This document shows positions 29,290 through 45,712 of a stretch of DNA of 64,000 nt, in pieces. Location of the stretch: the NCBI RefSeq assembly GCF_013912375.1, contig NZ_JACETV010000001.1, positions 124,001 through 188,000 of the forward strand, in the 5' to 3' direction. Numbering within the stretch: position 1 is the first letter of the stretch; every line of letters begins with the position of its first letter. The translations under genes were made by a program, and so were the position numbers. The stretch comes from Emticicia sp. BO119. Lineage in GTDB: Bacteria > Bacteroidota > Bacteroidia > Cytophagales > Spirosomataceae. The notes beneath the pieces are model-generated. The model was not told the origin of the DNA, made no database searches, and was given only the letters and a program-made list of their open reading frames with translations.

Positions 29290-29306
29290 CAACAAAAAAA
29301 GCAAAT

Positions 29307-29672
29307 ATGAAACAAATTATCTTTACAGAAAAAGCACCTGCTGCCATAGGTCCATATAGCCAGGCAGTGCTGGCAGGAAACACACTCTATGTATCGGGGC
29401 AGATAGCCTTGGAACTGGCTGCTTCTGGTGATATAAAGGCTGAGGCAAAGAAAATTATGGAGAACATCGGGCATATATTAGCAGAGGCTGGAATGGATTA
29501 TCCAAACATTGTGAAATCAAGTATTTTTCTAAAAAATATGGATGATTTTGCCCTTATAAACGAAGTGTACGGGAGCTATTTTCCCTCAGACCCCCCGGCA
29601 AGAGAAACAGTTCAGGTAGCGCGGCTACCTAAAGATGTAAACGTTGAAATTTCAGTAATTGCCGTTAACTAA
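29307..29672 (+). CDS. ridA: RidA family enamine/imine deaminase
   Basis: 121 residues, the full length of a RidA/YjgF subunit. RidA hydrolyses reactive enamine/imine intermediates released by PLP enzymes such as threonine dehydratase and thereby protects metabolism. Diagnostic segments are IGPYSQAVLAGNTLYVSGQIA, the catalytic Arg in PARETVQVARLP, and the C-terminal VEISVIAV. The protein forms cytosolic trimers. Confidence 0.94.
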   Translation: MKQIIFTEKAPAAIGPYSQAVLAGNTLYVSGQIALELAASGDIKAEAKKIMENIGHILAEAGMDYPNIVKSSIFLKNMDDFALINEVYGSYFPSDPPARETVQVARLPKDVNVEISVIAVN

Positions 29673-32190: not shown

Positions 32191-33540
32191 TCAAATAGCC
32201 TTTGAAAAAGTATTTTGTATCACACTGCCTGTCTGGCGAATGTACTTGTCGAAAACAATACATACGTTTCTGATAAATGCACGTCCATCTGCTGTAACCT
32301 TTACCATATTATCTTTGAACTGAATAATGCCATCTTCCTGTAGGGCCAGCAATTGCTTTATTTGTTGCTGACTGAGGTCATTCAACGAGAAATCAGTCTC
32401 AAATCGGCACATCAGATTCTGTATATAGTTTCTCCATATCATATCTTCTTCTGATTGTATATGCCCTCGCAGAATAGGGAAGATATGATTTTTGGTAAGG
32501 TCTATGTATTCATCTAAACTCTTTGTATTCTGAGATAAAGCCGTCCAGGAATCACTAATAGCCGATACCCCTAACCCAAGCATACACTTAGACTGCGAGT
32601 TGGTATAGCCCATAAAATTTCGGTTGAGTGTACCATTCTGGCTTGCTTTGAAGAGTGTATCCGAAGGAATGGCAAAGTGATCCATACCTATTTCTGTATA
32701 GCCGTTTTCCTCGAATATCGTTCTGCCTAACTCATATAATTGTCTTTTGGCTTCAGCACTGGGTAAGTTATTCTCATCAAAGCCGCGCTGTCCGTTTCCT
32801 TTTAGCCAGGGTACATGCGCATAAGAATAAAGAGAAAGCCTGTCAGGAGACAATTCTATAGTCTTTCTGATGGTTTTTTCAAATTGTTCTGTATTCTGAA
32901 ATGGCAATCCGAAAACTAAATCATGGCTGATAGAAGTATAGCCAATCTCACGTGCCAGTTCAGTTACTTTTTTTACGTTTTCAAAGGGCTGAAGCCTGTT
33001 GATAGCTACCTGTACTGTGTGGTCATAGTCCTGAACACCGAAACTTACCCTGCGAAATCCTAAATTGTAGAGTGTCCTTAAATGCGCCTCTGTGGTGTTA
33101 TTAGGATGACCTTCAAAACTAAACTCATGAGTTGCGCTTACCTTTGAGCCAGACAAAATGCCCTCTATTAATTCTTTGAGGTTTTCGGGCGAGAAGAAAC
33201 TGGGTGTACCACCTCCTAAATGTATTTCTTCAATCACAGGGGCTTCTCTTAATAAATTTCTGTACATCTGCCATTCTCTGAGTACGGCTTCTATATAAGG
33301 TACTTCAAATTGATGGTTAACTGTGATACGTTTATGGCAGGCGCAGAATGTGCAAAGACTCTCGCAAAAGGGGAGATGAATATAAAGACTTAGTTTCTTT
33401 TGGTTTTTATAGGTCTTAATGAAACTTTCTTTCCATTGAGCTTCTGTAAAGTTATCATTATCCCAATACGGTACTGTTGGATAACTGGTATATCTTGGTG
33501 CAGAAGTATTATACTTCTCAATAAGTGCTGATTGTGTCAT
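32191..33540 (-). CDS. hemN: oxygen-independent coproporphyrinogen III dehydrogenase
   Basis: Radical-SAM enzyme of 449 residues that converts coproporphyrinogen III to protoporphyrinogen IX without oxygen, a late step of heme synthesis. The cluster motif is CESLCTFCAC (Cys59, Cys63, Cys66 as ligands and the extra Cys68 typical of true HemN). Further family segments are EIHLGGGTPSFFSPENL, RVSFGVQDYD and EIGMDHFAIP. It heads its own unit on the minus strand and carries a perfect Fnr/Crp-type operator upstream, which fits the need for this enzyme at low oxygen and its supply of heme to the cbb3 oxidase encoded 10 kb away. Confidence 0.95.
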   Translation of the reverse strand: MTQSALIEKYNTSAPRYTSYPTVPYWDNDNFTEAQWKESFIKTYKNQKKLSLYIHLPFCESLCTFCACHKRITVNHQFEVPYIEAVLREWQMYRNLLREAPVIEEIHLGGGTPSFFSPENLKELIEGILSGSKVSATHEFSFEGHPNNTTEAHLRTLYNLGFRRVSFGVQDYDHTVQVAINRLQPFENVKKVTELAREIGYTSISHDLVFGLPFQNTEQFEKTIRKTIELSPDRLSLYSYAHVPWLKGNGQRGFDENNLPSAEAKRQLYELGRTIFEENGYTEIGMDHFAIPSDTLFKASQNGTLNRNFMGYTNSQSKCMLGLGVSAISDSWTALSQNTKSLDEYIDLTKNHIFPILRGHIQSEEDMIWRNYIQNLMCRFETDFSLNDLSQQQIKQLLALQEDGIIQFKDNMVKVTADGRAFIRNVCIVFDKYIRQTGSVIQNTFSKAI

Positions 33541-33556: not shown

Positions 33557-33604
33557 CAAAAGTAGTATTGAGATAAAAAAAGAAATATGATGAAAATCAT
33601 ATTT
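33557..33604 (-). promoter_or_regulatory. hemN promoter with perfect Fnr/Crp-type operator
   Basis: Minus-strand -7 box TACTTTTG at 33564-33557. The palindrome AAATATGAT, N4, ATCATATTT at 33583-33604 is perfect over 9+9 bases, centre 33593.5, 29.5 bases before the -7 box (about -41 from the start site). Class II activation by a Crp/Fnr-family protein is the natural reading. It is the best copy of the motif set in this window. Confidence 0.8.
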
Positions 33605-33605
33605 G

Positions 33606-34646
33606 CTAATTTCTTAGCCTTTTTAGTTTTTCAATATTTAAAATAGTAATTCTTCCCGACTCTACTTCTATTAATTTTTCATCTCTGAAATCTGATAATG
33701 TACGGATTGCTGTTTCGAGAGAAGTACCTGCGGCACTTGCTAAGTCTTCTCTGCTTATTTTCATGGAAGATAGATTGTCCTGATAGAAACGAAGTAATGC
33801 TTCAGATACCCTTTTTCTTACAGAGTTATAGGCCAATTTCAGCAGGTTCTCTTCATTGGCTTTGATATTTTTGGAAAGTAGCTGAATGAATTTCTGAGCC
33901 ACCTGTGGATTCTGATGCAGAAGTACGTAAAAATCTTTTTTAGGAATCAGACAGATTTCTGTTTCTTCTAATGTTTCGGTAGTGTCTGTAAAGTTAGTTT
34001 CCTGAATCAGGTCTACATACCCTACAAAATCTCCGGCGTTATAGAGATTAACTATAAATTCCTTCCCGTCATCATTAGTTTTAAATGCTTTTATTTTCCC
34101 TTTTTGTATATAATACAGATATAACGGAAAATCCCCCTCTCTATAAATCTCAGTTTTTTTCTTAAAATATCTGACCTCCCTGTTTTCTGTCAGTTTTTTT
34201 AGTTCCTGTTCACCATTGGCATCTGCAATTAACTGGTCAAGCCCGGCAATATCCTGCGAGTAGTGCTTTTTTGATACTTCTTTTTTGCGGAGGCGGCTTT
34301 CAATAGCACTTAATAATTCAACATCATCAAAGGGTTTTGTAATATAATCATCAGCTCCCATATCCATTCCTTTTCTGAGATCAGTACGTTCTGCTTTAGC
34401 AGATAAAAAAATAAATGGAATAGTCGCTGTTTTTTCCTGTTTTGAAAGAAGGTGCAAAACACCGTATCCATCTAATACTGGCATCATTATATCACAGATA
34501 ATCAGGTCAGGTATTTCTTTTAAAGCTAAATCTACGCCTACTTTTCCGTTTTCAGCTAACAGAACTTCATAACCGTCTAATTCTAAAATTTCAGAGGTAT
34601 TTTCTCTGATTTCTGCATTATCTTCAATCAAGAGGATTTTTTTCAT
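33606..34646 (-). CDS. receiver-Crp/Fnr fusion response regulator
   Basis: 346 residues with an unusual order: CheY-like receiver (1-120; acidic Glu8/Asp9, phospho-acceptor Asp52, Lys104), a linker, a cyclic-nucleotide-binding-like beta-roll (about 155-250; GDFPLYLYYIQKGKIKAF, GDFVGYVDLI), the dimerisation helix (250-280) and a Crp-type winged helix (about 285-340). The recognition helix SLETAIRTLSDF keeps the Glu (311) and Arg (315) that contact TGA half-sites in Crp and Fnr. Only two Cys are present (51, 232), so there is no Fnr-type iron-sulfur cluster. It forms an operon with the PAS kinase gene 15 bases upstream and probably reads out its phosphorylation. Candidate regulator of the TGA-N6-TCA sites around it (inferred). 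Confidence 0.9.
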   Translation of the reverse strand: MKKILLIEDNAEIRENTSEILELDGYEVLLAENGKVGVDLALKEIPDLIICDIMMPVLDGYGVLHLLSKQEKTATIPFIFLSAKAERTDLRKGMDMGADDYITKPFDDVELLSAIESRLRKKEVSKKHYSQDIAGLDQLIADANGEQELKKLTENREVRYFKKKTEIYREGDFPLYLYYIQKGKIKAFKTNDDGKEFIVNLYNAGDFVGYVDLIQETNFTDTTETLEETEICLIPKKDFYVLLHQNPQVAQKFIQLLSKNIKANEENLLKLAYNSVRKRVSEALLRFYQDNLSSMKISREDLASAAGTSLETAIRTLSDFRDEKLIEVESGRITILNIEKLKRLRN

Positions 34647-34661
34647 AATATGGTGCGCTAC

Positions 34662-35897
34662 TTATAAGTATCGTGGTAGTGTAATAATAAATTCTGTGCC
34701 TTTGTTTACCTCACTTGTAAAATCGATTTTACCTTTCAGAAGTAATACGTATTGATTCACAATACTTAGCCCTAAGCCTGTTCCCTGAATGGCCTCAGCA
34801 TTACTCATACGGTAAAATCTTTCGAAAACGTGTTTTTTTTCAGCCTCAGGTATGCCAATGCCTTCATCTTTTATACTGATAATTACTTGGCTGTCTGTCA
34901 ATAGCCCTTTTATCTGAATAGAGGAATTTTCCGGCGAAAACTTGATTGCATTAGAAATAAGATTAATGACAATGTTTTTAATAAGCTTGGCATCAAGTCT
35001 TACTTCATATGAGTCGTTCAGGGCTTCACAAATACAATCAATTCTTTGCCCTTTTTTAGCAATCCCCTGCATCTGCTGACCTATTTCGTCTACCAGTTCA
35101 TTAATGGCAAAAGACTCGGGAGTTACCACAACCTTCCCTTCTTCAAGTTTATTGAGCGATAAAAAATCGTTAAGTATTTCTGTCAGATTTCTTACTGATG
35201 ATTTGATCCGGTGAATATGCTTGTCCCGCTTTTCGTTTTCATCTAAATCTCCATATTTTTCAACCAGCGACAGGGAAGAAAGAACTGTTGCCAGAGGTGT
35301 ACGAAACTCATGTGAAGCAATGGTAATAAACCTTGATTTCATCAGATTTACTTCTTGTTCACGTTTCAAGGCTCTGTCTAATTCATCTTTGGTTTTCTCT
35401 AATTTCTGAATTGCCTCTTTCAGTACCAATGTGCGCTCTTCTACTTCAACTTCCAGTTCATTTTTATAACTTACCAGCTTGTTTTCAGCAATCTTCCTGA
35501 TCGAAATGTCAATCACAAAGGCAATTACATAGGCTCCTTTGCTGTTTTGATAAGGACTCAGGCTGATTTCTACCGGAAACTCAGAGCCATCTTTACGCTT
35601 GGCATATAAATCCATACCACTCCCCATAGACCTTGCATGCGGATGCTCATTGAAATTCATTCTGTGGGCAGTATGCATCTGACGAAAGCGATTCGGAATT
35701 AAATCTTCTATCATCAGATCAGCCAGTTCTTCAGGCTCATACCCAAACATCTCAGCACCGCTGGGGTTTACACGTACAATTTTGCCTTGTTTGTCTGCTA
35801 TCAAAATCCCTTCAGTAGCAAAGAGAAAAATCGCCTCTGATTGGTGTAATATATCCATTTCCTCTATTGTTGGCGGGCTGCCAGTTTTCTTTTTCAT
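34662..35897 (-). CDS. cytoplasmic PAS-domain sensor histidine kinase
   Basis: 411 residues from the ATG at 35897 (the frame opens with a TTG two codons earlier). PAS domain about 15-135, coiled coil about 137-185, HisKA with phospho-acceptor His196 in ASHEFRTPL, HATPase with NLISNAIKFSP, DEGIGIP and GTGLGLSIV. No membrane helix is present, so it senses an internal signal. The PAS segment NRFRQMHTAHRMNF ... KRKDGSEFPVEISL resembles FixL, with His75 where FixL has its heme ligand, but the same His occurs in PAS domains without heme, so oxygen sensing is only a possibility. The gene is followed by the receiver-Crp gene, its evident partner. Confidence 0.92.
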   Translation of the reverse strand: MKKKTGSPPTIEEMDILHQSEAIFLFATEGILIADKQGKIVRVNPSGAEMFGYEPEELADLMIEDLIPNRFRQMHTAHRMNFNEHPHARSMGSGMDLYAKRKDGSEFPVEISLSPYQNSKGAYVIAFVIDISIRKIAENKLVSYKNELEVEVEERTLVLKEAIQKLEKTKDELDRALKREQEVNLMKSRFITIASHEFRTPLATVLSSLSLVEKYGDLDENEKRDKHIHRIKSSVRNLTEILNDFLSLNKLEEGKVVVTPESFAINELVDEIGQQMQGIAKKGQRIDCICEALNDSYEVRLDAKLIKNIVINLISNAIKFSPENSSIQIKGLLTDSQVIISIKDEGIGIPEAEKKHVFERFYRMSNAEAIQGTGLGLSIVNQYVLLLKGKIDFTSEVNKGTEFIITLPRYL

Positions 35898-35963
35898 CAG
35901 CAAAGGAGAGAAGTTTTAGCACCTAAAAATATGACAAAAATCAGGTTTCTGAAATAGTATTGA

Positions 35964-36036
35964 CAAAATTAATTGAATTATCATATTCTAATATGATAAT
36001 GCTCATATTCATTAGGAGATGAAATTCTGAATTTTG
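35964..36036. promoter_or_regulatory. divergent promoters sharing one Fnr/Crp-type operator
   Basis: The operator is AATATGAT, N4, CTCATATT at 35990-36009 (centre 35999.5, one mismatch between arms). To the right an xAnnTTTG box GAATTTTG at 36029-36036 begins 29.5 bases from the centre (for the stress-protein gene). To the left, on the minus strand, TAATTTTG at 35971-35964 begins 28.5 bases from it (for the kinase/regulator operon). A single bound dimer could activate both. A longer perfect palindrome (ATTATCATAT, N4, ATATGATAAT, 35977-36000) overlaps the same place. Confidence 0.75.
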
Positions 36037-36057
36037 TTGTATTGAAAAACTATATAT

Positions 36058-36876
36058 ATGAAAACCATTTTATTAGCCACCGATTTTTCAAAAGCTGCCA
36101 ACAAGGCAATATATATCGCTACTCAAATCGCTATTAAACAACAAGCCCGTCTGATACTATTTCATTCGTATCGGTTTTTAAATACTTACGATGATAACTA
36201 TGGGTATCCGATTGATGAAGTAAAAAAGATTAGTACAAAGAAATTAAACTATCTGAAAAGACGGATTCTTGAAAAAAGTGAACAGCCTCTTGAAATTATC
36301 TTGTGTAATAGACATGGCTTTGTGATGGATACTATAAAGGAAGCAATAGCTGAATATAATGTGGATTTGATAATAATGAGTAGTGTAGGGGATGCTCCTT
36401 TGGGGGCAGGATATTTTGGAAGTATTGCTACTGAAATGTTAGGTAAACTGAAAGTTCCTATGCTAATACTACCACCCGGATATAAACTCACTTATATTGA
36501 AAACGCCGTAATGGCTATTGACCTGAAGAAGCCCATTGATGCGATCGTTTTTGAGAAAAGCATTTATTTCCTCAGGGATTTAGGTGCGATCGTAGATGTG
36601 CTATATGTAGCTAAAAACGAAGCAGAAGCTAATAGTGAAGAGACAAAAGATGCGGTTTTAGGGCTTAGAGAATTATTGAAAAATGTGCCTCATACTTTTC
36701 AGACAATAATTGGCACCAGGCAAGTGGATGAAATGAATGCTTTTGTGAAAAAAAGAAAAGCACAATTGCTGATCACATTTCCGCAGCATCATACTTTTTT
36801 TGAGAGAGTTTTCTTACAGGGTAACACCCGTCGCTTGGTGTTTGATGCAGAAGTACCTGTATTGGCTATTCATTAA
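36058..36876 (+). CDS. tandem universal stress protein (UspA family)
   Basis: 272 residues with two Usp domains in tandem (about 1-142 and 145-272). The first is complete: MKTILLATDFSKAANKAI, LIIMSSVGD and the nucleotide-loop-like segment GSIATEMLGKLKVPMLILP. The second is more divergent (VMAIDLKKPIDAIVFEKSI, LLITFPQHHTFFERVF, TRRLVFDAEVPVLAIH). Such proteins help cells through energy or oxygen stress. It is divergent from the PAS-kinase operon, shares its operator, and is followed after 18 bases by a small gene. A homologue with the same layout lies at 42160. Confidence 0.9.
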   Translation: MKTILLATDFSKAANKAIYIATQIAIKQQARLILFHSYRFLNTYDDNYGYPIDEVKKISTKKLNYLKRRILEKSEQPLEIILCNRHGFVMDTIKEAIAEYNVDLIIMSSVGDAPLGAGYFGSIATEMLGKLKVPMLILPPGYKLTYIENAVMAIDLKKPIDAIVFEKSIYFLRDLGAIVDVLYVAKNEAEANSEETKDAVLGLRELLKNVPHTFQTIIGTRQVDEMNAFVKKRKAQLLITFPQHHTFFERVFLQGNTRRLVFDAEVPVLAIH

Positions 36877-36894
36877 ATTAAAAAACTATTATTT

Positions 36895-37242
36895 ATGAAA
36901 ATTGTCGTTGATAAAGAAATGACCGTTAGTCAATTAGGAAGAGCGTTCAACGAAGTTTATCCTTTCCTTAAAATTGAGCTGTATTGTAAAGGCAATGAAG
37001 TAAGTAATGATAGTTTTAATACATTAGGGGAGATTGCAAATGTGAAAAAACCATCAATATTTATCATTTCACCTACGATGACTATTCATGAAATCGAAAC
37101 TTATTTCTGGGAAGAATTGGGTCTGCAGGTAGCAGTTTTCAGAAAAGTTGGTAATTCTTGGATACATACCTCTTTCACCAACGACTGGACGCTTGAGAGA
37201 CAGAACCGAACGGGGATGAATATCTTCGGGGCAATTGCATGA
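36895..37242 (+). CDS. conserved small protein of unknown function, coupled to Usp gene
   Basis: 115 residues, soluble, no signal peptide, helix or metal motif that I can name. Readable segments are MTVSQLGRAFNEVYPFLKIEL, then IFIISPTMTIHEIETYFWEELGLQVAVFRKVGN and WTLERQNRTG at the end. The mixed alpha/beta pattern suggests a small regulatory domain. It follows the stress-protein gene by 18 bases, shares its Fnr-type promoter and ends inside a terminator hairpin. Function unknown; a role in the microaerobic response is inferred from position only. Confidence 0.75.
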   Translation: MKIVVDKEMTVSQLGRAFNEVYPFLKIELYCKGNEVSNDSFNTLGEIANVKKPSIFIISPTMTIHEIETYFWEELGLQVAVFRKVGNSWIHTSFTNDWTLERQNRTGMNIFGAIA

Positions 37243-37278
37243 GTATTCTATTAAATAAATACTCATGCAACGCTTTTA
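37235..37278 (+). terminator. terminator overlapping the stop codon of the small Usp-linked gene
   Basis: TTGCATGAGTATT (37235-37247) pairs perfectly with AATACTCATGCAA (37258-37270) around 10 bases; the TGA stop codon (37240-37242) is inside the left arm. CGCTTTTAATTG follows. Confidence 0.8.
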
Positions 37279-37653
37279 ATTGATTAGCACGCCTCTAAGT
37301 TACTCTAAAGAACTTTTGTTGTGATAATTTTACCTTAAGCATCTACAGCTATAATTCAGGGTACAGCATATAAAACATAGTTTTTTTAATAATCCGGTCT
37401 GGTTGGTTAGAATAAAATTGATCTCGTTTTATTCAGGGTAGTCATAGTCGGTCTTTTTTTTGATTAATGCAAGTTTTAAGATTCATTTTTATGGGTTTCA
37501 GTGATTGGCTTTCCTGGTATTCAGAATCTTATACTATCCAGCGTGGATATATCTTAAAATAAGCCCGGATAGCCAGAGCTCTTAGGAATGAACTTGTTAG
37601 AATAACCGCAAGTGATTACTCCTTATAACCGTATCATTTACCAGTAATTCCTG
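37279..37653. other. long intergenic region before the desaturase operon
   Basis: About 375 bases with no gene that I can support. A 23-codon frame at 37491-37562 (MGFSDWLSWYSES) has no evident ribosome-binding site and is probably chance. The stretch ends at the Fnr-type operator of the next operon. An inverted repeat AAACCC/GGGTTT at 37711-37729 lies further on, in the leader of that operon. Confidence 0.45.
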
Positions 37654-37701
37654 AAATATGATAAATATCAGTTTTTCAGTTGGAGTTTAATCATAATTGA
37701 G
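37654..37701 (+). promoter_or_regulatory. Fnr/Crp-type operator and promoter of the desaturase-ccoI-ccoS operon
   Basis: AAATATGAT, N4, ATCAGTTTT at 37654-37675; the left arm is identical to the hemN site and the right arm keeps ATCA. Centre 37664.5. Exactly 29.5 bases downstream is TAATTGAG (37694-37701), a partial match to TAnnTTTG. The predicted start site is about 45 bases before the ATG at 37750. Confidence 0.65.
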
Positions 37702-37749
37702 CCTTTAGTTAAACCCTAATTTTGGGTTTTCAATTAACACACGTTCTTA

Positions 37750-38496
37750 ATGGCAATTTTAATCTTTTTTCTGGCTCACTGGTACTTATCCTTATTTTCA
37801 CAGACTTTCTTCCTGCACCGCTATGCGGCTCACCAGATGTTCACAATGTCGAAAGGATGGGAGAAATTTTTTTATGTTTTCACTTTCATCACACAAGGCT
37901 CATCATTTTTAAGCCCTAAAGCCTACGGTATCATGCACCGGTTACACCATGCGTATGCTGATACTGAAAAAGACCCACACTCACCGAGTTATTCTGATAA
38001 CCTCTTTCATATGATGTGGAAAACGAAGAATTATTATAATGATATACTGAACGATAAGGCCAATATAGAGCCGAAGTTTAAAAAGGGCGTACCCAACTGG
38101 ATGTTTATGGAACGCCTGGGTGATAAGTGGACAGTAAGGGTAGCATGGGGTGTGCTTTATACTTTGTTTTATATCTATTTTGCTACTAATGCGTGGGAAT
38201 ATCTCCTATTGCCGATTCATTACCTGATGGGACCAGTACATGGGGTGATCATCAACTGGTTTGCACATAAATATGGTTATACCAACTTTAAAGTAAACGA
38301 TACAGCAAAAAACCTGCTCCCGTTCGATTTCCTGATGATGGGAGAATCTTATCACAACAACCATCATAAATTGGGGGGTAGGGCAAATTTCGGCATTAAA
38401 TGGCATGAGTTTGACCCTACGTACCCAATCATTTTATTGCTCAATAAACTACACATTATAAAGCTCAAACTAAATAACGATTTGAACTATATGTAA
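37750..38496 (+). CDS. fatty acid desaturase (acyl-CoA/delta-9 type)
   Basis: Membrane di-iron desaturase of 248 residues that introduces a double bond in a fatty acyl chain using oxygen. The three His boxes are HRYAAH (near 24), HRLHHAYADT (near 61) and HNNHHKLGG (near 199); several hydrophobic segments lie between them. At 248 residues it is compact for the family. It is the first gene of an operon with ccoI and ccoS (20-base gap) and has an Fnr-type operator. An oxygen-using enzyme regulated with the high-affinity oxidase suggests membrane-fluidity adjustment or oxygen competition at low oxygen; this is inferred. Confidence 0.9.
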   Translation: MAILIFFLAHWYLSLFSQTFFLHRYAAHQMFTMSKGWEKFFYVFTFITQGSSFLSPKAYGIMHRLHHAYADTEKDPHSPSYSDNLFHMMWKTKNYYNDILNDKANIEPKFKKGVPNWMFMERLGDKWTVRVAWGVLYTLFYIYFATNAWEYLLLPIHYLMGPVHGVIINWFAHKYGYTNFKVNDTAKNLLPFDFLMMGESYHNNHHKLGGRANFGIKWHEFDPTYPIILLLNKLHIIKLKLNNDLNYM

Positions 38497-38515
38497 CCTC
38501 CTGAATACTACAGCT

Positions 38516-40921
38516 ATGACACTCAATGATACCAGAATAGCATGCTACCACTGCGGAGACGATTGTGCCGACAGCCCGATTGTGCTGGATGATAAACACT
38601 TTTGTTGTCATGGCTGTAAGACTGTTTATGAGATTCTGCAAGACAATAACCTCTGTTCATACTACGACCTGAACCAGAATGCAGGTATTAGCCTGAAAGC
38701 CGCCAGTTTTAATGGCAGGTTTGATTATCTGGCTGATGAAAAAATACAAACCCAGTTGCTCGACTTTCAGAGTGTAGGCATTAATAAAGTGACCTTGTTT
38801 ATTCCCGCAATTCACTGTAGTTCATGCGTGTGGTTGCTCGAAAACTTCAATAAGATTCAGACAGGCATCTTTACGGCAAGGCTTAATTTCCTCAGAAAAG
38901 AATTATCACTAAGTTATGACCCAAGCAAAGTAAATTTACAGATTATTGTAGAACTCTTGGCTACTTTAGGGTATGAACCGCTCATTAACCTGCAAAGTGT
39001 TGAGCATCAGCCTAAACAAAACAAAGTTCAAAGACGCCTCATACTTCAGATAGGCGTAGTAGGGTTTTGCATGGGTAATGTCATGCTCCTGAGTTTTCCT
39101 GAGTATTTTAAATTAGACCTCAATAATATAGTAGATGCCACCTATCAGCGGTTTTTCTTATATCTTAACTTTTTGCTGTCACTACCGGTCTTTTTTTTCG
39201 GAGCTTCTGATTACCTCAAAGGCGCTATCATTTCTATTAAAGAAAACCTGCGCAATAAGACTACGATACTTAGTGTAGATATTCCGATAGCTTTAGGCAT
39301 TACTGCTCTGTTTGTCAGAAGTAGCTTTGAAACTTTTGTGAATCATTCAGCAGGGTATTGGGATAGCCTCGCTGGATTGGTTTTCTTCTTATTAACAGGT
39401 AAATGGGTGCAGCAGGTTACTTACAATTATCTGTCTTTTGAGCGTAACTATAAATCGTATTTCCCTTTAGCCGTAAAAGTAAAAAATGCTTTCAAAAATG
39501 TTTCTGAATTACAAAAAGGTGACATCATAGACATACATCATCAGGAGCTGATTCCAGCTGATTCTTTGCTGCTATCAGATAGAGCCTATATTGATTACAG
39601 CTTCGTAACCGGCGAATCGGAACCAATCAAAAAAGAAAAGGGAGAGTTGATATATGCTGGAGGCAGGCTGATCGGCGAAAAAGTGCATCTCACAGTACAG
39701 AAACAAGTTTCACAGAGCTATCTGACAGAATTGTGGAACAACGATGCCTTCAAGAAAGAGAAAAAAACACCTGCCATAGATTTAGCCAATGCTTTCAGTA
39801 AATACTTTACTTATACCACCCTTCTGATTGCTTCAGTAACAGGTATATACTGGTATTTTCATCAACCTGACTTGGTCTGGACAAGCGTAACCGCTGTATT
39901 AATGGTAGCCTGCCCTTGTGCACTTACACTCTCTATGCCTTTTACCATGAACACGGCAATGGGTATTTTTGGTAGAAATAAATTTTTTGTGAAAAATCAG
40001 ATGGTAGTCCAGTTAATGACTGAGATAGATGAAGTTGTATTTGATAAAACCGGAACTCTCACCGAAAACAAAAACGGGCAGTTACATTTTGCAGACGGAT
40101 ATCTGAATGAACAGGAAAAAAGTTGGATAGGCCAGTTGGCGGCACAATCAATGCACCCCCTAAGCAAAATGATATACCAACACTTAGGAATAGGTAAAGG
40201 TAATATAAGCTATTTTAATGAAATAAAAGGAATGGGGATTGAAGGAGTAATAGATGGGAATTTCATCAGATTAGGAAATGCTGAGTTTATCGGACTACCT
40301 GCAACAGGTACGATTGCCAGTCAGGTAAATGTTGAAATAAACCGGGAATATAAAGGATATTTTACCATAAAATCAGAGTATCGCAAAAACTGGAAAGATG
40401 TTTTAGAACAATTGCAGGCCGGTTTTAAAATGGCTCTGTTATCAGGCGATAATGATGAAGAAAAGAATCGCCTGAATCGCTACTTTCATGAAAACAGATT
40501 ATTGTTTAATCAGAAACCACAGGATAAACTGAATTTCATTAAGAAAGAGCAGGAAGCGGGGCATCATGTACTGATGATTGGTGATGGGCTGAATGATGCA
40601 GGGGCTTTGCGCCAAAGCAATGTAGGTATTGCCCTGAGCGAAGACGTACAGGCATTCTCGCCTGCCTGTGATGCTATCCTGGATGCATCAAATTTCAGCC
40701 GCCTGACAGATTTCCTACGATTCAGTAAAACAGCCCTTAATATCGTAAAAGCGAGCTTCATATTATCTTTAGTCTATAATTTTATAGGTATAGGCTGGGC
40801 TGTATCGGGGCAGTTATCGCCTGTAATGGCCGCTATTTTTATGCCTTTGAGTTCGTTATCAGTGGTATTATTTGCAGTAGGTACAACTTACCTTTTTGCC
40901 AAACTTAAAAAATTGATTTAG
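38516..40921 (+). CDS. ccoI: CcoI/FixI-type copper-exporting P-type ATPase
   Basis: P1B ATPase of 801 residues that moves copper across the inner membrane for assembly of the cbb3 oxidase. N-terminal Cys-rich metal segment (CYHCGDDC, FCCHGC), a heavy-metal-associated domain with CSSC at 101-104, eight membrane helices, actuator VTGESEPI, the intramembrane CPC in MVACPCALT (near 465), the phosphorylation site DKTGTLTE (near 509), SMHPLSK and GDGLNDAGAL. The position before ccoS and near ccoNOQP supports CcoI rather than a copper-resistance pump. Confidence 0.94.
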   Translation: MTLNDTRIACYHCGDDCADSPIVLDDKHFCCHGCKTVYEILQDNNLCSYYDLNQNAGISLKAASFNGRFDYLADEKIQTQLLDFQSVGINKVTLFIPAIHCSSCVWLLENFNKIQTGIFTARLNFLRKELSLSYDPSKVNLQIIVELLATLGYEPLINLQSVEHQPKQNKVQRRLILQIGVVGFCMGNVMLLSFPEYFKLDLNNIVDATYQRFFLYLNFLLSLPVFFFGASDYLKGAIISIKENLRNKTTILSVDIPIALGITALFVRSSFETFVNHSAGYWDSLAGLVFFLLTGKWVQQVTYNYLSFERNYKSYFPLAVKVKNAFKNVSELQKGDIIDIHHQELIPADSLLLSDRAYIDYSFVTGESEPIKKEKGELIYAGGRLIGEKVHLTVQKQVSQSYLTELWNNDAFKKEKKTPAIDLANAFSKYFTYTTLLIASVTGIYWYFHQPDLVWTSVTAVLMVACPCALTLSMPFTMNTAMGIFGRNKFFVKNQMVVQLMTEIDEVVFDKTGTLTENKNGQLHFADGYLNEQEKSWIGQLAAQSMHPLSKMIYQHLGIGKGNISYFNEIKGMGIEGVIDGNFIRLGNAEFIGLPATGTIASQVNVEINREYKGYFTIKSEYRKNWKDVLEQLQAGFKMALLSGDNDEEKNRLNRYFHENRLLFNQKPQDKLNFIKKEQEAGHHVLMIGDGLNDAGALRQSNVGIALSEDVQAFSPACDAILDASNFSRLTDFLRFSKTALNIVKASFILSLVYNFIGIGWAVSGQLSPVMAAIFMPLSSLSVVLFAVGTTYLFAKLKKLI

Positions 40922-40923
40922 CT

Positions 40924-41091
40924 ATGGCAGTCATTATTCTTTTAGTAGTAGCGGCTCTTTTGGTAGCTGCAGGTTTCTTAGCTTCTTTCTTCTGGGCCAC
41001 TAATGACGGCCAGTTTGACGATACTTTTACCCCATCTGTAAGGATTTTGTTTGACGATGAAAAACCTGCCGAAAATCATAAGGTTTCATGA
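40924..41091 (+). CDS. ccoS: cbb3 oxidase assembly protein CcoS
   Basis: Small membrane protein of 55 residues. One helix (MAVIILLVVAALLVAAGFLASFFWA), then the family signature WATNDGQFDD(T)FTPSVRILFDDE, which is typical of CcoS (W-A-x-x-xGQFDD). CcoS is needed for insertion of heme and copper into CcoN. It starts 2 bases after the ccoI stop codon, so translation is coupled. Confidence 0.92.
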   Translation: MAVIILLVVAALLVAAGFLASFFWATNDGQFDDTFTPSVRILFDDEKPAENHKVS

Positions 41092-41123
41092 GTTGCAATA
41101 GATTTTAAATAGATAAAGTAGTA

Positions 41124-41131
41124 TAGCTTTG
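41124..41131 (+). promoter_or_regulatory. possible -7 box before the gene at 41154
   Basis: TAGCTTTG matches TAnnTTTG exactly and lies 23-30 bases before the ATG at 41154. No TTG at the usual -33 spacing is seen. Confidence 0.45.
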
Positions 41132-41153
41132 TACATTCAATCAATCGAATGCT

Positions 41154-41999
41154 ATGAAGTCAAAATTCCATAAGAACATCTATAACTATATTCAGAAATC
41201 TATCAGTTTTGTACTTGAAACCGGAGCTTTGGTAGGTCTTATTGTATTAGTAATCCTTTTTTTTGTGGCTCGTAACTGTCAGGCACAGGTTGATTTCTCT
41301 AAAATACCTGCGAATGAAAAGTTTATTAACAATAAAGCCTCAATAATGGTAAAGAATATAGGCTTAGTGCAGCGGGACGAAGAGTTAGATTGTACCTGGA
41401 AGACCTCTCATGCACAGATTAGCGGTATGTTAGATACCAAAACACAGGAGTTCCTGAATGACTGGCTGTCGGGTATGACCTACTTTGGCAATTGCGAGGG
41501 TGATAAAGAGTGTTATGATTTTCAATCGTATCATTATTACTACAAAGCTACAAGAGTAACTCATCTGCAAAACGATTTATTAGGGTTTTACTTACATGAA
41601 GGAAATTGTAAAGATGAAAAGACTTATTGCCTGGAGAACCAGGATTGGGAGATATATGATTTGAGAGGGAAACGATTTTTACAGGAGGGAGATATACTTT
41701 TGCAGGATAATAAATCTCAGGAGAAGTTTTTTACGCTGATTGAAAGCAAAGTGAAAAAACAAAAATGGAATTTAGTGAATGACTGGAAAATCTATACACG
41801 CCAGATCGGTTTAGATAATAATCAATTGATTGTTTATCTGAATAATGATATGCTGAATAATAGCAAGGGAGTTATAGTACGATTCAGAATAGATGAAGTT
41901 CAAAGCCTGCTTGTGCCATGTTTTGCCAATCGTTTGAAAAACAGAGCTTGCGAAGAGTTTAATCAACCCATTATCGGGCATCATTTATTAAAAAACTGA
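41154..41999 (+). CDS. membrane-anchored or exported protein of unknown function
   Basis: 281 residues. The N-terminus has a basic segment and one hydrophobic helix (about 24-43, ALVGLIVLVILFFVARNCQAQ), which may be a membrane anchor or a long signal peptide. The exported part has six Cys (LDCTWK, GNCEGDKECYDF, GNCKDEKTYC) that could form disulfides, and ends with GHHLLKN. I do not recognise the family; the mix of strands in the C-terminal half is reminiscent of DUF3298-like proteins, but weakly. It lies between ccoS and a stress-protein gene, with its own -7 box and terminator. Role unknown. Confidence 0.7.
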   Translation: MKSKFHKNIYNYIQKSISFVLETGALVGLIVLVILFFVARNCQAQVDFSKIPANEKFINNKASIMVKNIGLVQRDEELDCTWKTSHAQISGMLDTKTQEFLNDWLSGMTYFGNCEGDKECYDFQSYHYYYKATRVTHLQNDLLGFYLHEGNCKDEKTYCLENQDWEIYDLRGKRFLQEGDILLQDNKSQEKFFTLIESKVKKQKWNLVNDWKIYTRQIGLDNNQLIVYLNNDMLNNSKGVIVRFRIDEVQSLLVPCFANRLKNRACEEFNQPIIGHHLLKN

Positions 42000-42037
42000 C
42001 ATTTCTTAGGTAGAAATATTTAGGTTCGTAAAGTCGG

Positions 42038-42067
42038 AAAAAGACAGGTATTACCTGTCTTTTTTTT
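42038..42067 (+). terminator. rho-independent terminator
   Basis: A stem of 12 bp (42038-42049 with 42053-42064; core GACAGGT/ACCTGTC) with a 3-base loop followed by a run of T to 42067. Confidence 0.9.
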
Positions 42068-42133
42068 CTGATATATATCATGTTTTCATGTATGCCTTCT
42101 CATAAATTGCTTATGATGAGTAGCTTAATTTTG
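42064..42133 (+). promoter_or_regulatory. candidate promoter of the second Usp gene with a weaker Fnr-type half-site
   Basis: TAATTTTG at 42126-42133 matches the -7 consensus; TTG at 42107-42109 is 16 bases upstream. A TGA-N6-TCA core (TTTTCTGAT, N4, ATCATGTTT, 42064-42085) has a good right arm and a poor left arm; its centre (42074.5) is 51.5 bases before the -7 box, about two helical turns further than the other sites, as in class I activation. The left arm overlaps the T-tract of the preceding terminator, so the match may be accidental. Confidence 0.45.
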
Positions 42134-42159
42134 TATTGAAAATTAAACCACTCCTCAAT

Positions 42160-43023
42160 ATGAAAAAGGTACTCCTGACAACCGACTTCTCAAAGGCATC
42201 TGAAAATGCCATACAATATTCAATCAAATTATTGGGCGATACCCCATGCGAGTTTACACTCATGCATGCGTATGATACTTTCCCGGCAGGTGGGTCACCC
42301 GAAATAGCCTACGCTCTTATTGATGAAATGTTTAAAGTTGCTAAAAAAGAGATAGCAGAATATCTCATCGTAATAAAGAAACTGGATACCAGGCAAATCC
42401 ATACTTTCAAGGTCGAACTGGTTTCGGGTTCCCCTGCAAGTGCTATACAGATTCTTAATCAAAGTCATGATTATGATTTTGTAGTAGTTGGTGCCACAGG
42501 CAGGGGGAGTGACATCCTGTTTGGAAGTACCGCCACTGACGTAGTAAGAAATGTTGATGCTAATTCACTTATAGTTCCCGTAAAAGCTGAGGCTACACCT
42601 GTAAAGAATATTGTATTGGCAGTAGATTATCAACCCATTAATTCTTTCAAAGAGTTTGATGGGCTAAAGCAGCTCTTATTGCAAAAAAATGCGACTCTTA
42701 CTTTACTGACAGTCATTAAAGACGGGAAATCCCAAACCGAATTAGATGGTTTAATGAAATTTGAATACCACGATTATTTCAAAGGTATCAATATCGTCGA
42801 TTATCAGATTCATGCAGAAAATGTAGAAGAAGGAATTGTGGATTTTTTAAGCACGCATGAAGCTGATATGTTGGTAATGCTTACTCGCCACCATTCGTTT
42901 TTCGATGTATTGTTTAATCGCTCACTTACACGCACGTTTGCCTTCAATGCTACTATTCCTTTACTAAGTATTTATGATGAGGCAAATATTGAAGTACCTG
43001 AGCACGAAGTAGTTACTTTTTAA
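42160..43023 (+). CDS. tandem universal stress protein (UspA family)
   Basis: Two Usp domains in 287 residues, with start chosen at 42160 (MKKVLLTTDFSKASENAIQYS); the frame opens 8 codons earlier. The first domain has the nucleotide-loop motif VVVGATGRGSDILFGSTATDVVRN (G-x2-G-x9-G-S/T type), so it may bind ATP; the second is degenerate (NIVLAVDYQPI, MLVMLTRHHSFFDVLFNRSLTRTFAF). It resembles the protein at 36058 in layout and in the HHSFF/HHTFF segment, so the two are paralogues. It lies just upstream of the ccoNOQP genes and is followed by a coiled-coil protein gene. Confidence 0.9.
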   Translation: MKKVLLTTDFSKASENAIQYSIKLLGDTPCEFTLMHAYDTFPAGGSPEIAYALIDEMFKVAKKEIAEYLIVIKKLDTRQIHTFKVELVSGSPASAIQILNQSHDYDFVVVGATGRGSDILFGSTATDVVRNVDANSLIVPVKAEATPVKNIVLAVDYQPINSFKEFDGLKQLLLQKNATLTLLTVIKDGKSQTELDGLMKFEYHDYFKGINIVDYQIHAENVEEGIVDFLSTHEADMLVMLTRHHSFFDVLFNRSLTRTFAFNATIPLLSIYDEANIEVPEHEVVTF

Positions 43024-43052
43024 CTGATTTTGTCAATCTAAAATTATAAGCA

Positions 43053-43445
43053 ATGAACAAGTTTTCACAATTGAACCGTACACATTTTCAGTATAGGATA
43101 TGGCGAAATGAATTAGAGTTGATGCAGCAGGAAACTGATTTCTTTTTGAGTGTAATAGAGGAGATAGCCAGCCTGGAAGATAACGCCGCAAAAACTGAGC
43201 AAAACTGGTTTATCAATCAGTTTCATCATTTCCAGAGATTAATCAAGCAATTAAAAGGCGAATTAAGCAGCGTAGAGAAAGGCCTGGCAGAGGGTGTGCT
43301 ACATGATAGAATCTTAGACAAAGAGCAAAGGCTGGACCATCAGTATCTGAAAGAAGAGATGGATTATTTTGAGCAGGACTATCGATCTGTCAAGACGAAA
43401 TTCAGAACATTTATCGCTAATTCAGAAACTATCGGAATTGATTAA
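43053..43445 (+). CDS. small helical protein of unknown function
   Basis: 130 residues, nearly all helical with heptad-like patterns (FFLSVIEEIASLE, FQRLIKQLKGELSSVEKGL, YLKEEMDYFEQDYRSVKTKF), without signal peptide or membrane helix. Scattered His (THFQYRI, FHHFQRL, LDHQYL) recall four-helix bundles, but no complete hemerythrin or ferritin motif is visible. It follows the Usp gene by 29 bases and precedes ccoNO. Function unknown. Confidence 0.7.
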   Translation: MNKFSQLNRTHFQYRIWRNELELMQQETDFFLSVIEEIASLEDNAAKTEQNWFINQFHHFQRLIKQLKGELSSVEKGLAEGVLHDRILDKEQRLDHQYLKEEMDYFEQDYRSVKTKFRTFIANSETIGID

Positions 43446-43469
43446 TAATAGCATTACGTCTGCCTGAGA

Positions 43470-43515
43470 AATTATGACGAATGTCATATTTCCAGCAAAC
43501 TATGCTCATGTTTTG
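43470..43515 (+). promoter_or_regulatory. Fnr/Crp-type operator upstream of ccoNO
   Basis: AATTATGAC, N4, GTCATATTT at 43470-43491; the core TATGAC-N4-GTCATA is a perfect palindrome, centre 43480.5. The best -7-like sequence is ATGTTTTG at 43508-43515, 27.5 bases from the centre. The ATG of ccoNO is at 43571. Confidence 0.7.
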
Positions 43516-43570
43516 CGCAATTGACCGACAGTAATTTTACGCCATCAAAGTTTTTAAAACTCATTTTCTT

Positions 43571-45712
43571 ATGCAGTATATTACGCAGCCTGAATCAGTC
43601 GGGACATTAGAACGATTTGAATACGATAATAAAATCGTCAAAGCCTTTCTGATTGTAACAGTCATTTTTGGTTTAGTTGGTATGTTAGCCGGACTAACCC
43701 TCGCTGTCCAGCTTTTCTGGCCTGGAGCCAATTTTGAAAGCCCACATGTAACATTCGGGCGTTTAAGACCTTTACATACCAATGCCATTATTTTTGCTTT
43801 CGTGGGCAATGCCATGTTTGCAGGTATTTACTATTCCCTGCCGAGGCTCCTCAAAACTCCCATGTTTAATAAAACTCTCTCCTGGATTCACTTCTGGGGG
43901 TGGCAATTAATTATACTTGCTGCTGCAATTACCTTACCTTTAGGCATTACCACAAGTAAAGAATATGCCGAACTCGAATGGCCTATCGATATTGCCATTG
44001 CGTTGGTTTGGGTAGTATTTGCCATTAATATGTTTGGAACAATTATTAAACGCCGTGAACGCCATATGTATGTGGCAATCTGGTTTTATATCGGTACGGT
44101 GGTTACAGTAGCTTTGCTACATATTGTTAACTCTTTTGAATTACCCGTTTCCTTAACAAAAAGCTACTCCCTCTATGCAGGTGTGCAGGATGCTCTGGTG
44201 CAATGGTGGTATGGGCACAATGCCGTGGCCTTCTTTCTAACTACTCCTTATCTGGGGCTGATGTATTACTTTTTGCCAAAAGCAGCTAATCGACCCGTAT
44301 ATTCATATAAGTTATCAATTATACACTTCTGGTCGCTCATATTCATTTATATCTGGGCTGGGCCACACCATTTGCTTTACAGCTCATTACCCGACTGGGC
44401 GCAAAGTTTAGGTACAGTATTCTCTATTATGTTAATTGCACCCTCATGGGGAGGCATGCTGAATGGCCTTTTAACTTTGCGTGGTGCCTGGGACAAAGTA
44501 CGCGAAGACCCGGTGCTGAAATTCTTCGTAGTAGCTGTAACTGCTTACGGTATGGCAACCTTTGAAGGCCCGATGCTCTCTTTGAAAAACGTTAATGCCA
44601 TCTCACATTTTACAGACTGGACAATCGCTCACGTACACGTAGGGGCTTTAGGCTGGAACGGATTCATGATATTTGGTATCTTATACTACCTGATACCACG
44701 TATGTATCAGACCAGACTTTACTCTAAAGGTCTCACAAATACGCACTTCTGGTTGGGTACATTAGGGATTATCTTCTATGCTTTGCCAATGTACTGGGCT
44801 GGTTTTACGCAAAGTTTAATGTGGAAAGAGTTTACACAAGATGGTTTTCTGGCTTATCCGAACTTCCTTGAAACAGTTACGCAGATCGTACCTTTGTATA
44901 TGCTAAGAGCAGTGGGGGGTACAATGTACCTGATAGGCACCTTAATCATGATATATAACCTTATTAAAACGGCTAATCAGGGTTCATTTGTTCCTGCAGA
45001 GTATGCCGAAGCACCTGCACTTGAAAAACACGTAAAAGTAACAGGTGGAACATGGCACTCGGTTCTAGAACGTAAGCCTGTGATTTTTACAGGTTTGGCA
45101 CTCATAGCCGTGGTGATAGGCGGTGTAATAGAATTTGTACCTACTGCACTCATTGAATCTAATATTCCGACGATTGATGCTGTAAAACCTTACACCCCTC
45201 TTGAGCTGACCGGTCGTGATTTATATATAAAAGAGGGATGTGTAGGTTGCCACTCACAGATGATCCGTCCGTTCCGTTCTGAAACTGAACGTTATGGCGA
45301 ATACTCAAAAGCCGGAGAATTTGTCTATGACCACCCGTTTTTATGGGGTTCAAAACGAACAGGGCCTGATTTGCATCGGGTAGGTAAGAAGTATCCTGAT
45401 AGCTGGCATTACAACCACATGATGGATCCTACTACCATGTCTCCTGGCTCAATTATGCCTCCTTATCCCTGGTTATTAGAAAATAATTACGATAAAGAGT
45501 TACTCCCGGCCAAAATTAAAGCGATGCGTACATTGGGTGTACCATATCCTGAAGGCTACGAAGACATAGCAGTAGCAGAGGCAGAAAAACAGGCTCAGGA
45601 GATTACCAGAAGTCTGGCAGATGCAAAAATCAAGACAAGTAGCGATAAAGAAATCATAGCCTTGATTGCTTACTTGCAACGATTAGGAACTGATATTAAA
45701 ACTACAAAGTAG
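43571..45712 (+). CDS. ccoN: cbb3-type cytochrome c oxidase, fused subunits I and II (CcoNO)
   Basis: Catalytic core of the high-affinity terminal oxidase, 713 residues. The CcoN part (about 1-480) has 12 or more helices and the metal ligands: HTNAIIFAF (low-spin heme), YGHNAVAFFL and GPHHLLYSS (copper B), HVHVGALGW (hemes). The CcoO part (about 510-710) has the heme c site CVGCH followed by SQMIRPFRSETERYGEYS, typical of CcoO. In proteobacteria these are two proteins; here one reading frame encodes both, as in many Bacteroidota. It reduces oxygen to water at very low oxygen. The stop codon lies in a hairpin before ccoQ. Confidence 0.95.
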   Translation: MQYITQPESVGTLERFEYDNKIVKAFLIVTVIFGLVGMLAGLTLAVQLFWPGANFESPHVTFGRLRPLHTNAIIFAFVGNAMFAGIYYSLPRLLKTPMFNKTLSWIHFWGWQLIILAAAITLPLGITTSKEYAELEWPIDIAIALVWVVFAINMFGTIIKRRERHMYVAIWFYIGTVVTVALLHIVNSFELPVSLTKSYSLYAGVQDALVQWWYGHNAVAFFLTTPYLGLMYYFLPKAANRPVYSYKLSIIHFWSLIFIYIWAGPHHLLYSSLPDWAQSLGTVFSIMLIAPSWGGMLNGLLTLRGAWDKVREDPVLKFFVVAVTAYGMATFEGPMLSLKNVNAISHFTDWTIAHVHVGALGWNGFMIFGILYYLIPRMYQTRLYSKGLTNTHFWLGTLGIIFYALPMYWAGFTQSLMWKEFTQDGFLAYPNFLETVTQIVPLYMLRAVGGTMYLIGTLIMIYNLIKTANQGSFVPAEYAEAPALEKHVKVTGGTWHSVLERKPVIFTGLALIAVVIGGVIEFVPTALIESNIPTIDAVKPYTPLELTGRDLYIKEGCVGCHSQMIRPFRSETERYGEYSKAGEFVYDHPFLWGSKRTGPDLHRVGKKYPDSWHYNHMMDPTTMSPGSIMPPYPWLLENNYDKELLPAKIKAMRTLGVPYPEGYEDIAVAEAEKQAQEITRSLADAKIKTSSDKEIIALIAYLQRLGTDIKTTK

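Follow-up and report, generated by a model that had tools for sequence, protein, structure and literature searches.

Which protein controls the low-oxygen genes of Emticicia sp. BO119, and through what promoter architecture? The question is raised by a 64,000-nt stretch of its genome (contig NZ_JACETV010000001.1, positions 124,001 to 188,000; hereafter the window), in which palindromic operators with the core TGA-N6-TCA lie before hemN, two universal stress protein (Usp) genes, a desaturase-ccoI-ccoS gene group, the cbb3 oxidase gene ccoNO, and a gene pair coding for a PAS histidine kinase and a response regulator. The anatomy of this unit, the spacing of its promoters, their conservation and the association of regulator with site are established here by sequence comparison. 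There are two promoter classes: class A has a single operator centred near -41.5, with the first T of the promoter box 29.5 bp from the operator centre, and class B has tandem operators near -63.5 and at -41.5, with the box 22-23 bp beyond the class A register. We think it probable that the unit is a two-component low-oxygen switch, a shortened FixL-FixJ-FixK chain acting on single and tandem operators. Its likely reader is the protein encoded at 33606-34646, to which a sequence-only reading of the window had also pointed; suggestive here are a Crp-type helix-turn-helix (HTH) with an FNR-like recognition helix, a gene lying among the targets, and an operator pattern that tracks the fusion of receiver and Crp/Fnr halves in this protein.

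Single and tandem operators at fixed registers

The sequence-only reading described four palindromes, before hemN, Usp1, the desaturase gene and ccoNO. All are present, with 18, 16, 15 and 15 matches out of 18 to AAATATGAT-N4-ATCATATTT, our operator score over TGA-N6-TCA sites, and the hemN site is indeed a perfect 9+9 palindrome. Two further operators had been overlooked, one before the kinase gene (15/18) and one before Usp2 (13/18). The hemN, Usp1 and kinase promoters fall in class A, and the desaturase, Usp2 and ccoNO promoters (three of the six) are tandem and fall in class B.

A distance of 29.5 bp between operator centre and box, claimed earlier for three of four places, stands for hemN and Usp1, which have good boxes, but not for the desaturase gene, where the sequence at that distance is TAATTGAG and the conserved box, TAATTTTG, lies 22-23 bp downstream. 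Likewise, the ccoNO box placed at 27.5 bp (TTTTG) is unsupported by relatives, in which TAATTTTA is the conserved box; both upstream candidates were rejected. Promoters of orthologous genes near the regulator were read in 40 stretches from relatives. Those of hemN, the kinase gene and Usp1 share one register for the -7 box, whose first T is 29.5 bp away from the centre of the operator. In those of the desaturase gene, Usp2 and ccoNO the box lies 22-23 bp farther on, and the 29.5-bp register is taken by a second operator or by just the right half of one, (A/G/C)TCAT. In the window the desaturase promoter has a spacing of 23 bp instead of 22, and there the proximal half and the box shift together. 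Conservation before orthologous genes is borne out: the hemN register is kept in L061, L062 and L063, the Usp2 distal operator in L062, L143 and L144, the operator before the kinase gene is also conserved, and all six window promoters recur in four Emticicia genomes (BO119 itself, G001, G002 and G008).

TAnnTTTG spans -12 to -5 in Flavobacterium psychrophilum (excerpts of PMC9723704), which would place the operator centres at -41.5 in class A and at about -63.5 and -41.5 in class B. The class II Crp/Fnr geometry suggested earlier agrees with this placement, 29.5 bp to the T at -12 corresponding to a centre at -41.5. The kinase box nearly coincides with the kinase ATG (35897-35908), putting the predicted +1 at the ATG; judging from this overlap, the kinase messenger may be leaderless.

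For a hold-out test we used an alignment of 15 regulators to scan named genomes and took the best 80 of at least 575 loci; with L147 and L148 removed as duplicates of earlier loci, 78 hold-out loci (1.35 Mb) remain, one per species, with kinship persisting among them. Dyadobacter and Chitinophaga are among the genera represented. Around 1559 oriented TGA-N6-TCA sites in this set, TAnnTTTG occurs 46 times at the class A position and 57 times at the class B position, against a mean of 0.86 and a maximum of 5 at 70 positions outside both peaks and their neighbours. TCA stands at the proximal position in 60 of the 88 sites with a class B box. Because full tandems fall in both peaks, promoters were also counted once: 34 are tandems of two full operators, 26 combine a full operator with a half, 19 are single and 19 have a distal operator only (98 in total), compared with 2-7 promoters in each of eight shifted registers. 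The register is strongly enriched in the hold-outs. Of 106 composite sites, where a full tandem may be counted twice, 58 stand before a gene resembling one in the window (chiefly ccoNO 18, Usp 13, kinase 10) and 48 before another gene or none.

The same sites could instead serve repression, or the tandem half sites could be conserved promoter sequence and nothing else, and the proximal sites do overlap the region where a -33 element is expected. Centres at -41.5, however, occupy the classical activator position, and 34 of the 60 hold-out tandem promoters have a full palindrome at the proximal position; we regard both forms of this alternative as unlikely. Since the hold-out consensus has a full proximal palindrome, the half sites of the window appear to be decayed remnants of an arrangement with two dimers.

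How specific are these patterns? The window holds 28 TGA-N6-TCA sites, and the six with the highest scores all lie within 33.5-43.6 kb, a segment with seven of the 28; the probability that the best six fall among those seven is about 2e-5, calculated post hoc. Whole genomes were scanned with the reversed pattern as control. The operator alone (up to three mismatches) has 41 matches in the 6.57-Mb BO119 genome and 17 in the control, and 1.3 to 4 times the control in seven other genomes of the genus; at about 2.4 times control in BO119, and with 8 of 23 examined sites outside the window lying within open reading frames, we rejected it as a genome-wide regulon marker. The tandem operator with its box occurs three times in the window and in none of 200 Markov simulations, and four times in the genome (control 0), three of these being the window promoters; a single operator with a box has 20 matches (control 5). 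The genome-wide specificity that the sequence-only reading had set as a test is therefore borne out for the tandem operator with box and moderately for the single operator with box, but not for the operator by itself. Two other candidates were set aside: the conserved start of a RidA-like gene (named by eye; 29303-29324), which is without the TGA-N6-TCA core, and a class A match at 22636, where the operator scores poorly.

The fusion regulator and its partner kinase

The regulator combines a receiver (Pfam PF00072, 1.3e-26), a cyclic nucleotide monophosphate (cNMP)-binding fold (PF00027, 1.2e-19) and an HTH (PF13545, 1.3e-15). A cNMP-binding fold followed by a Crp-type HTH is the architecture of the Crp/Fnr superfamily, and the receiver has the residues of a response regulator, with Asp52 (codon 34491-34493) and Lys104 invariant in 15/15 aligned proteins. 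Equally invariant are Glu311 and Arg315 of the recognition helix, which aligns to V-E-T-I-S-R of FNR; in FNR and CRP the Glu and Arg of this helix contact and read TGA. The FNR-type 4Fe-4S cysteine cluster is absent from the regulator, which has two cysteines only, at 51 (receiver) and 232 (cNMP domain), and it scores far below the cut-offs of the curated models (Fnr 78.5 of 228 bits, CRP 82.6 of 266 bits). The earlier proposal of Fnr-like regulation thus fits the operator, which is of Crp/Fnr type, but not the protein, a receiver-cNMP-HTH_Crp fusion without the FNR cysteines. Because the regulator has a receiver and lacks these cysteines, its signal most likely reaches it through the PAS kinase encoded next to it.

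In 73 of the 78 hold-out loci the kinase gene is directly upstream of the regulator gene, and the two proteins are putative phosphotransfer partners. Fourteen solved sequences match the kinase PAS domain at E up to 1e-3. FixL or DosP account for 13 of them, two under the older names heme PAS sensor and YddU, and the best match is an unnamed multi-sensor kinase. The residue roles discussed here are those of FixL and DosP. A histidine at the heme-ligand position, the proximal His (His75 in the window), is kept in 67 of 74 aligned kinases and in 37 of 41 in a second alignment that includes some mispicked kinases (L080 for one). Heme sensing by this domain is plausible.

The fusion might nevertheless bind its sites while the kinase reports a signal other than oxygen, such as nitric oxide, redox state or membrane stress. 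Besides oxygen, heme PAS domains can accept nitric oxide and carbon monoxide as ligands, and targets outside the window include a group III truncated haemoglobin and, in the hold-outs, proteins that by eye resemble iron-sulphur repair (RIC) proteins. On the other hand, cbb3 oxidase genes are the commonest labelled hold-out targets and hemN is also among them, and excerpts of PMC9723704 report an increase in cbb3 oxidase and heme synthesis in F. psychrophilum when oxygen is limiting. We consider a non-oxygen signal possible, if somewhat doubtful.

Regulator and operator across the Bacteroidota

If the fusion reads the tandem operator, the two should occur together, and we compared their distribution in 58 relatives (BO119 included; regulator called at E up to 1e-60) and in 395 Bacteroidota genomes. 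The fusion is found in 42 of the relatives, and the tandem pattern is present in 38 of these 42 (111 hits, control 8), as opposed to 3 of the 16 relatives without the fusion (4 hits, control 2). In the phylum sample 57 genomes have the fusion, one of them (G325) by its Crp half only; at least two tandem hits occur in 28 of 56 genomes with the fusion and 13 of 339 without it (p 8e-18, uncorrected for kinship).

Tandem hits in genomes without a full fusion have a partial counterpart in a second type of regulator. Six of eight such genomes examined code for a stand-alone Fnr of 234-244 amino acids with an N-terminal C-x2-C; of the other two, G436 has a match of this kind (match only), and G163 has no match to the stand-alone Fnr alignment at E up to 1e-50. 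In seven aligned stand-alone Fnr proteins (these six and that of L089), two N-terminal cysteines and one near position 112 are invariant, and the recognition helix reads E..IR. The stand-alone gene of genome G205 lies beside ccoI, ccoS and ccoNO (cco genes named by eye), with a tandem operator before ccoS. At locus L233 (G052:C13) a tandem operator is located between a stand-alone Fnr gene and a neighbouring ccoI-like gene (by eye).

Divided by regulator, the phylum sample has 98 tandem hits in 34 genomes with the fusion only (control 3), 27 in 22 genomes with both the fusion and a cysteine-type Fnr (control 1), and 34 in 47 genomes with a cysteine-type Fnr only (control 7). At least two hits occur in 7 of these 47 genomes versus 6 of 292 with neither regulator (p 6e-4), and 33 of the 47 have no tandem hit. 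Both kinds are present in G011 (L089) and in 22 of 56 phylum genomes with the fusion, and thus they are not simple alternatives.

Could a classical oxygen-sensing 4Fe-4S Fnr then read the window sites directly? The operator and the class II geometry are Fnr-like, and the stand-alone proteins just described, in six of eight fusion-less tandem genomes and beside cco in G205, speak for it. In BO119, however, the window protein lacks the cluster, the stand-alone Fnr alignment matches only the fusion at E up to 1e-50, and the other two HTH_Crp_2 proteins above cut-off are without an N-terminal C-x2-C (first Cys at 80 and 28), with three weaker matches not inspected. We find a 4Fe-4S reader in this genome very improbable.

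A different Crp/Fnr protein could also share or own the operators, for example the 211-amino-acid protein encoded at C12:605765, whose recognition helix is E-VVSR. An operator-like site lies 104.5 bp after its gene, before a metallo-beta-lactamase/rhodanese-like gene (by eye), and a paralogue of that gene at C12:801428, with both Pfam domains, has one too. Neither site is among the class A or class B matches of the genome, though, and the tandem pattern tracks the fusion, whose gene sits among its own targets; we judge this explanation quite unlikely. We note that the 211-amino-acid Crp/Fnr protein has an inner Cys cluster, and that operator-like palindromes lie before both the neighbouring gene and its paralogue (L103:1042-1677, L114:7046, L115:4439; C12:605-606 kb and C12:801 kb of BO119). 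These possibly belong to a separate, sulphur-related regulon with a similar site.

A tree was built from 39 of 114 fusion halves (every third and that of the window), 21 stand-alone proteins and two outgroups. The fusions form one side of a branch with support 100/100; the root and the outgroup rows are unsure (long branches), so that we claim one clade for the fusions and no direction of change. Five of 20 fetched stand-alone Fnr genes (L255-L258, L260) were left out of the tree, having been missed by a filter: four code for the N-terminal C-x2-C and an E-S-C-I-R helix, and the fifth, L258 (read from an inner Met), for neither. The evidence is evenly balanced on a broader proposal, in which one cis-code (tandem at about -63.5 and -41.5, or single at -41.5) would be read, through a similar recognition helix, both by an iron-sulphur Fnr that would itself sense oxygen and by the cluster-less receiver-Crp fusion with its heme-PAS kinase, the fusion having apparently arisen once and the sensor having been exchanged with the operator code kept.

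A proposed low-oxygen switch, its regulon and known systems

In the switch that we favour, the PAS kinase would sense low oxygen or some related cue, with heme as the probable cofactor, and would phosphorylate the receiver of the adjacent regulator, whose Crp/Fnr half would then bind the TGA-N6-TCA operators. At hemN, Usp1 and the regulator's own operon, one dimer at about -41.5 would activate transcription in a class II-like manner. At the desaturase-ccoI-ccoS, Usp2 and ccoNO promoters, the strong distal operator (about -63.5) would recruit one dimer, which would help a second onto the abutting weak proximal site at -41.5, and the two-dimer arrangement could give the oxidase genes a steeper response. 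What we infer in this scheme is that phosphate is transferred, that heme takes part, that oxygen is the signal, that the sites activate and do not repress, and that the dimers cooperate.

Several observations weigh against it. The G-x-G-R motif with the distal Arg of FixL is not found in the window kinase, which has Met at that position; the column holds 23 Arg and 20 Met among 74 aligned kinases, and G-[IVL]-G-R occurs in only 9 of 73 partner kinases (L085 and L275 also have the motif). A histidine at the ligand position is also present in PAS domains not known to bind heme. The proximal sites of the window are half sites only, the operator alone is not specific, and of the 55 hold-out loci that span 15 kb or more, only 22 have ccoNO near the regulator. 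Tandem sites are missing from 19 of 57 fusion genomes; 16 loci were fetched for these, two proved to come from genomes with hits, and 10 of the remaining 14 have a class A site near the regulator, with a relaxed box. Finally, the 292 genomes with neither regulator have 62 tandem hits (control 24), which means that other readers or coding repeats exist.

The features of the unit are collected in the Table. As the sequence-only reading held, its targets fit low-oxygen life, with hemN, cbb3 oxidase genes and Usp genes among the operator-bearing promoters. We take the P-type ATPase to be CcoI from its position beside cco, and the small membrane protein is presumably CcoS. The 115-amino-acid protein has no Pfam match up to E 1, and a fold search with its confident model (pLDDT, the predicted local distance difference test, 88) gave ubiquitin-like best matches that are not significant (E 0.09). 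In 12 of these 55 larger hold-out loci a homologue lies near the regulator, in some cases preceded by a class A or B site.

Table. Genes, operators and promoter boxes of the unit (window coordinates)
Feature	Position	Strand	Remarks
hemN, oxygen-independent coproporphyrinogen III oxidase	32191..33540	-	NCBIfam TIGR00538 above cut-off
hemN operator, perfect 9+9, centre 33593.5	33583..33604	-	box TACTTTTG 33557-33564; class A, -41.5
Response regulator, receiver + cNMP-like domain + Crp HTH	33606..34646	-	Pfam, residues
PAS histidine kinase	34662..35897	-	His75, codon 35673-35675, at FixL/DosP heme-ligand position
Kinase-regulator operon operator, centre 35937.5	35927..35948	-	degenerate box CTCCTTTG 35901-35908
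Usp1 operator, centre 35999.5	35989..36010	+	box GAATTTTG 36029-36036; class A
Universal stress protein 1 (Usp1)	36058..36876	+	Pfam Usp
115-amino-acid uncharacterised protein	36895..37242	+	homologues recur near regulator in phylum
Desaturase-ccoI-ccoS distal operator, centre 37664.5	37654..37675	+	
Desaturase-ccoI-ccoS proximal position, right half ATCAT only	37677..37698	+	box TAATTTTG 37717-37724; class B, 23 bp
Fatty acid desaturase	37750..38496	+	Pfam
CcoI-type heavy-metal P-type ATPase	38516..40921	+	three best NCBIfam models below cut-offs
ccoS-like small membrane protein	40924..41091	+	conserved beside cco in relatives
Usp2 distal operator, centre 42074.5	42064..42085	+	
Usp2 proximal position, right half CTCAT	42086..42107	+	box TAATTTTG 42126-42133; class B
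Universal stress protein 2 (Usp2)	42160..43023	+	Pfam Usp on longer frame from 42136; start = ATG 42160
ccoNO distal operator, centre 43480.5	43470..43491	+	
ccoNO proximal position, right half CTCAT	43492..43513	+	box TAATTTTA 43532-43539; class B
ccoNO, fused cbb3 oxidase subunits I/II	43571..45712	+	NCBIfam NF011053 above cut-off

Further regulon candidates lie outside the window: another Usp gene, close to one for Hsp20, that has a tandem promoter (C1:259969), the gene of a group III truncated haemoglobin, with a class A site in three of four Emticicia genomes, and an acetyl-CoA hydrolase/transferase gene with a class A site in all four, with weak flanks. The first belongs to a second stress island (L107; C1:252-268 kb in BO119), with Hsp20 and the Usp gene, in which a 134-amino-acid relative (by eye) of the uncharacterised protein 43053-43445 also lies behind a class A site. 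In three Emticicia genomes (L110:4893, L132, L133) a class A match is identical over 43 bp; it is flanked by a gene that by eye is deoxynucleoside-kinase-like and by a UPF0176/rhodanese gene. In two Emticicia genomes (L137:2668, L140:2512) a class A site precedes a peroxiredoxin-like and thioredoxin-like pair (by eye). In hold-outs such as L218 and L225, a target cluster of five entries, in which a gene may count in both classes, includes the RIC-like proteins, a hint that the regulon extends to nitric oxide stress.

Control of the high-affinity oxidase seems little described in the Bacteroidota. A literature search found no account of this fusion, operator or spacing, a weak sign of novelty given that it covered open-licence papers, and a receiver-Crp/Fnr regulator goes unmentioned in excerpts of PMC8510549 and PMC9239204. 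A probable phosphorelay input to Crp/Fnr low-oxygen control, and two promoter classes with a tandem-operator rule, appear to be new here and are well supported by comparison. The spacing rule is a ready predictor of low-oxygen promoters in many Bacteroidota, and with two sensor types acting on what may be a single operator code, the evolution of oxygen sensing becomes open to direct test.

Among known systems, the FixL-FixJ-FixK chain of rhizobia shares with the unit a PAS kinase with a heme-ligand His, a receiver protein, Crp/Fnr-type DNA binding and a cbb3 target; it differs in that here the functions of FixJ and FixK lie in one protein, Met stands in the distal heme Arg column, the operator flanks are different and tandem spacing is used. 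The DosS-DosR system of Mycobacterium is likewise a hypoxia two-component system with Usp targets, although the output domain of DosR is not of Crp/Fnr type. FNR itself (5cvr and kin, annotated as 'FNR type regulator') has the same fold and the same recognition-helix Glu and Arg, and the TGA-N6-TCA core and -41.5 position of its sites are those of the window; unlike FNR, the window regulator lacks the iron-sulphur cysteines, has an added receiver, and is paired with operator flanks AAATATGAT instead of TTGAT. The stand-alone Fnr of Bacteroidota is similar in its E..IR helix, in its association with the tandem operator in some genomes and in its place beside cco in G205, but has cysteines instead of the receiver, and the fusions form a separate clade.

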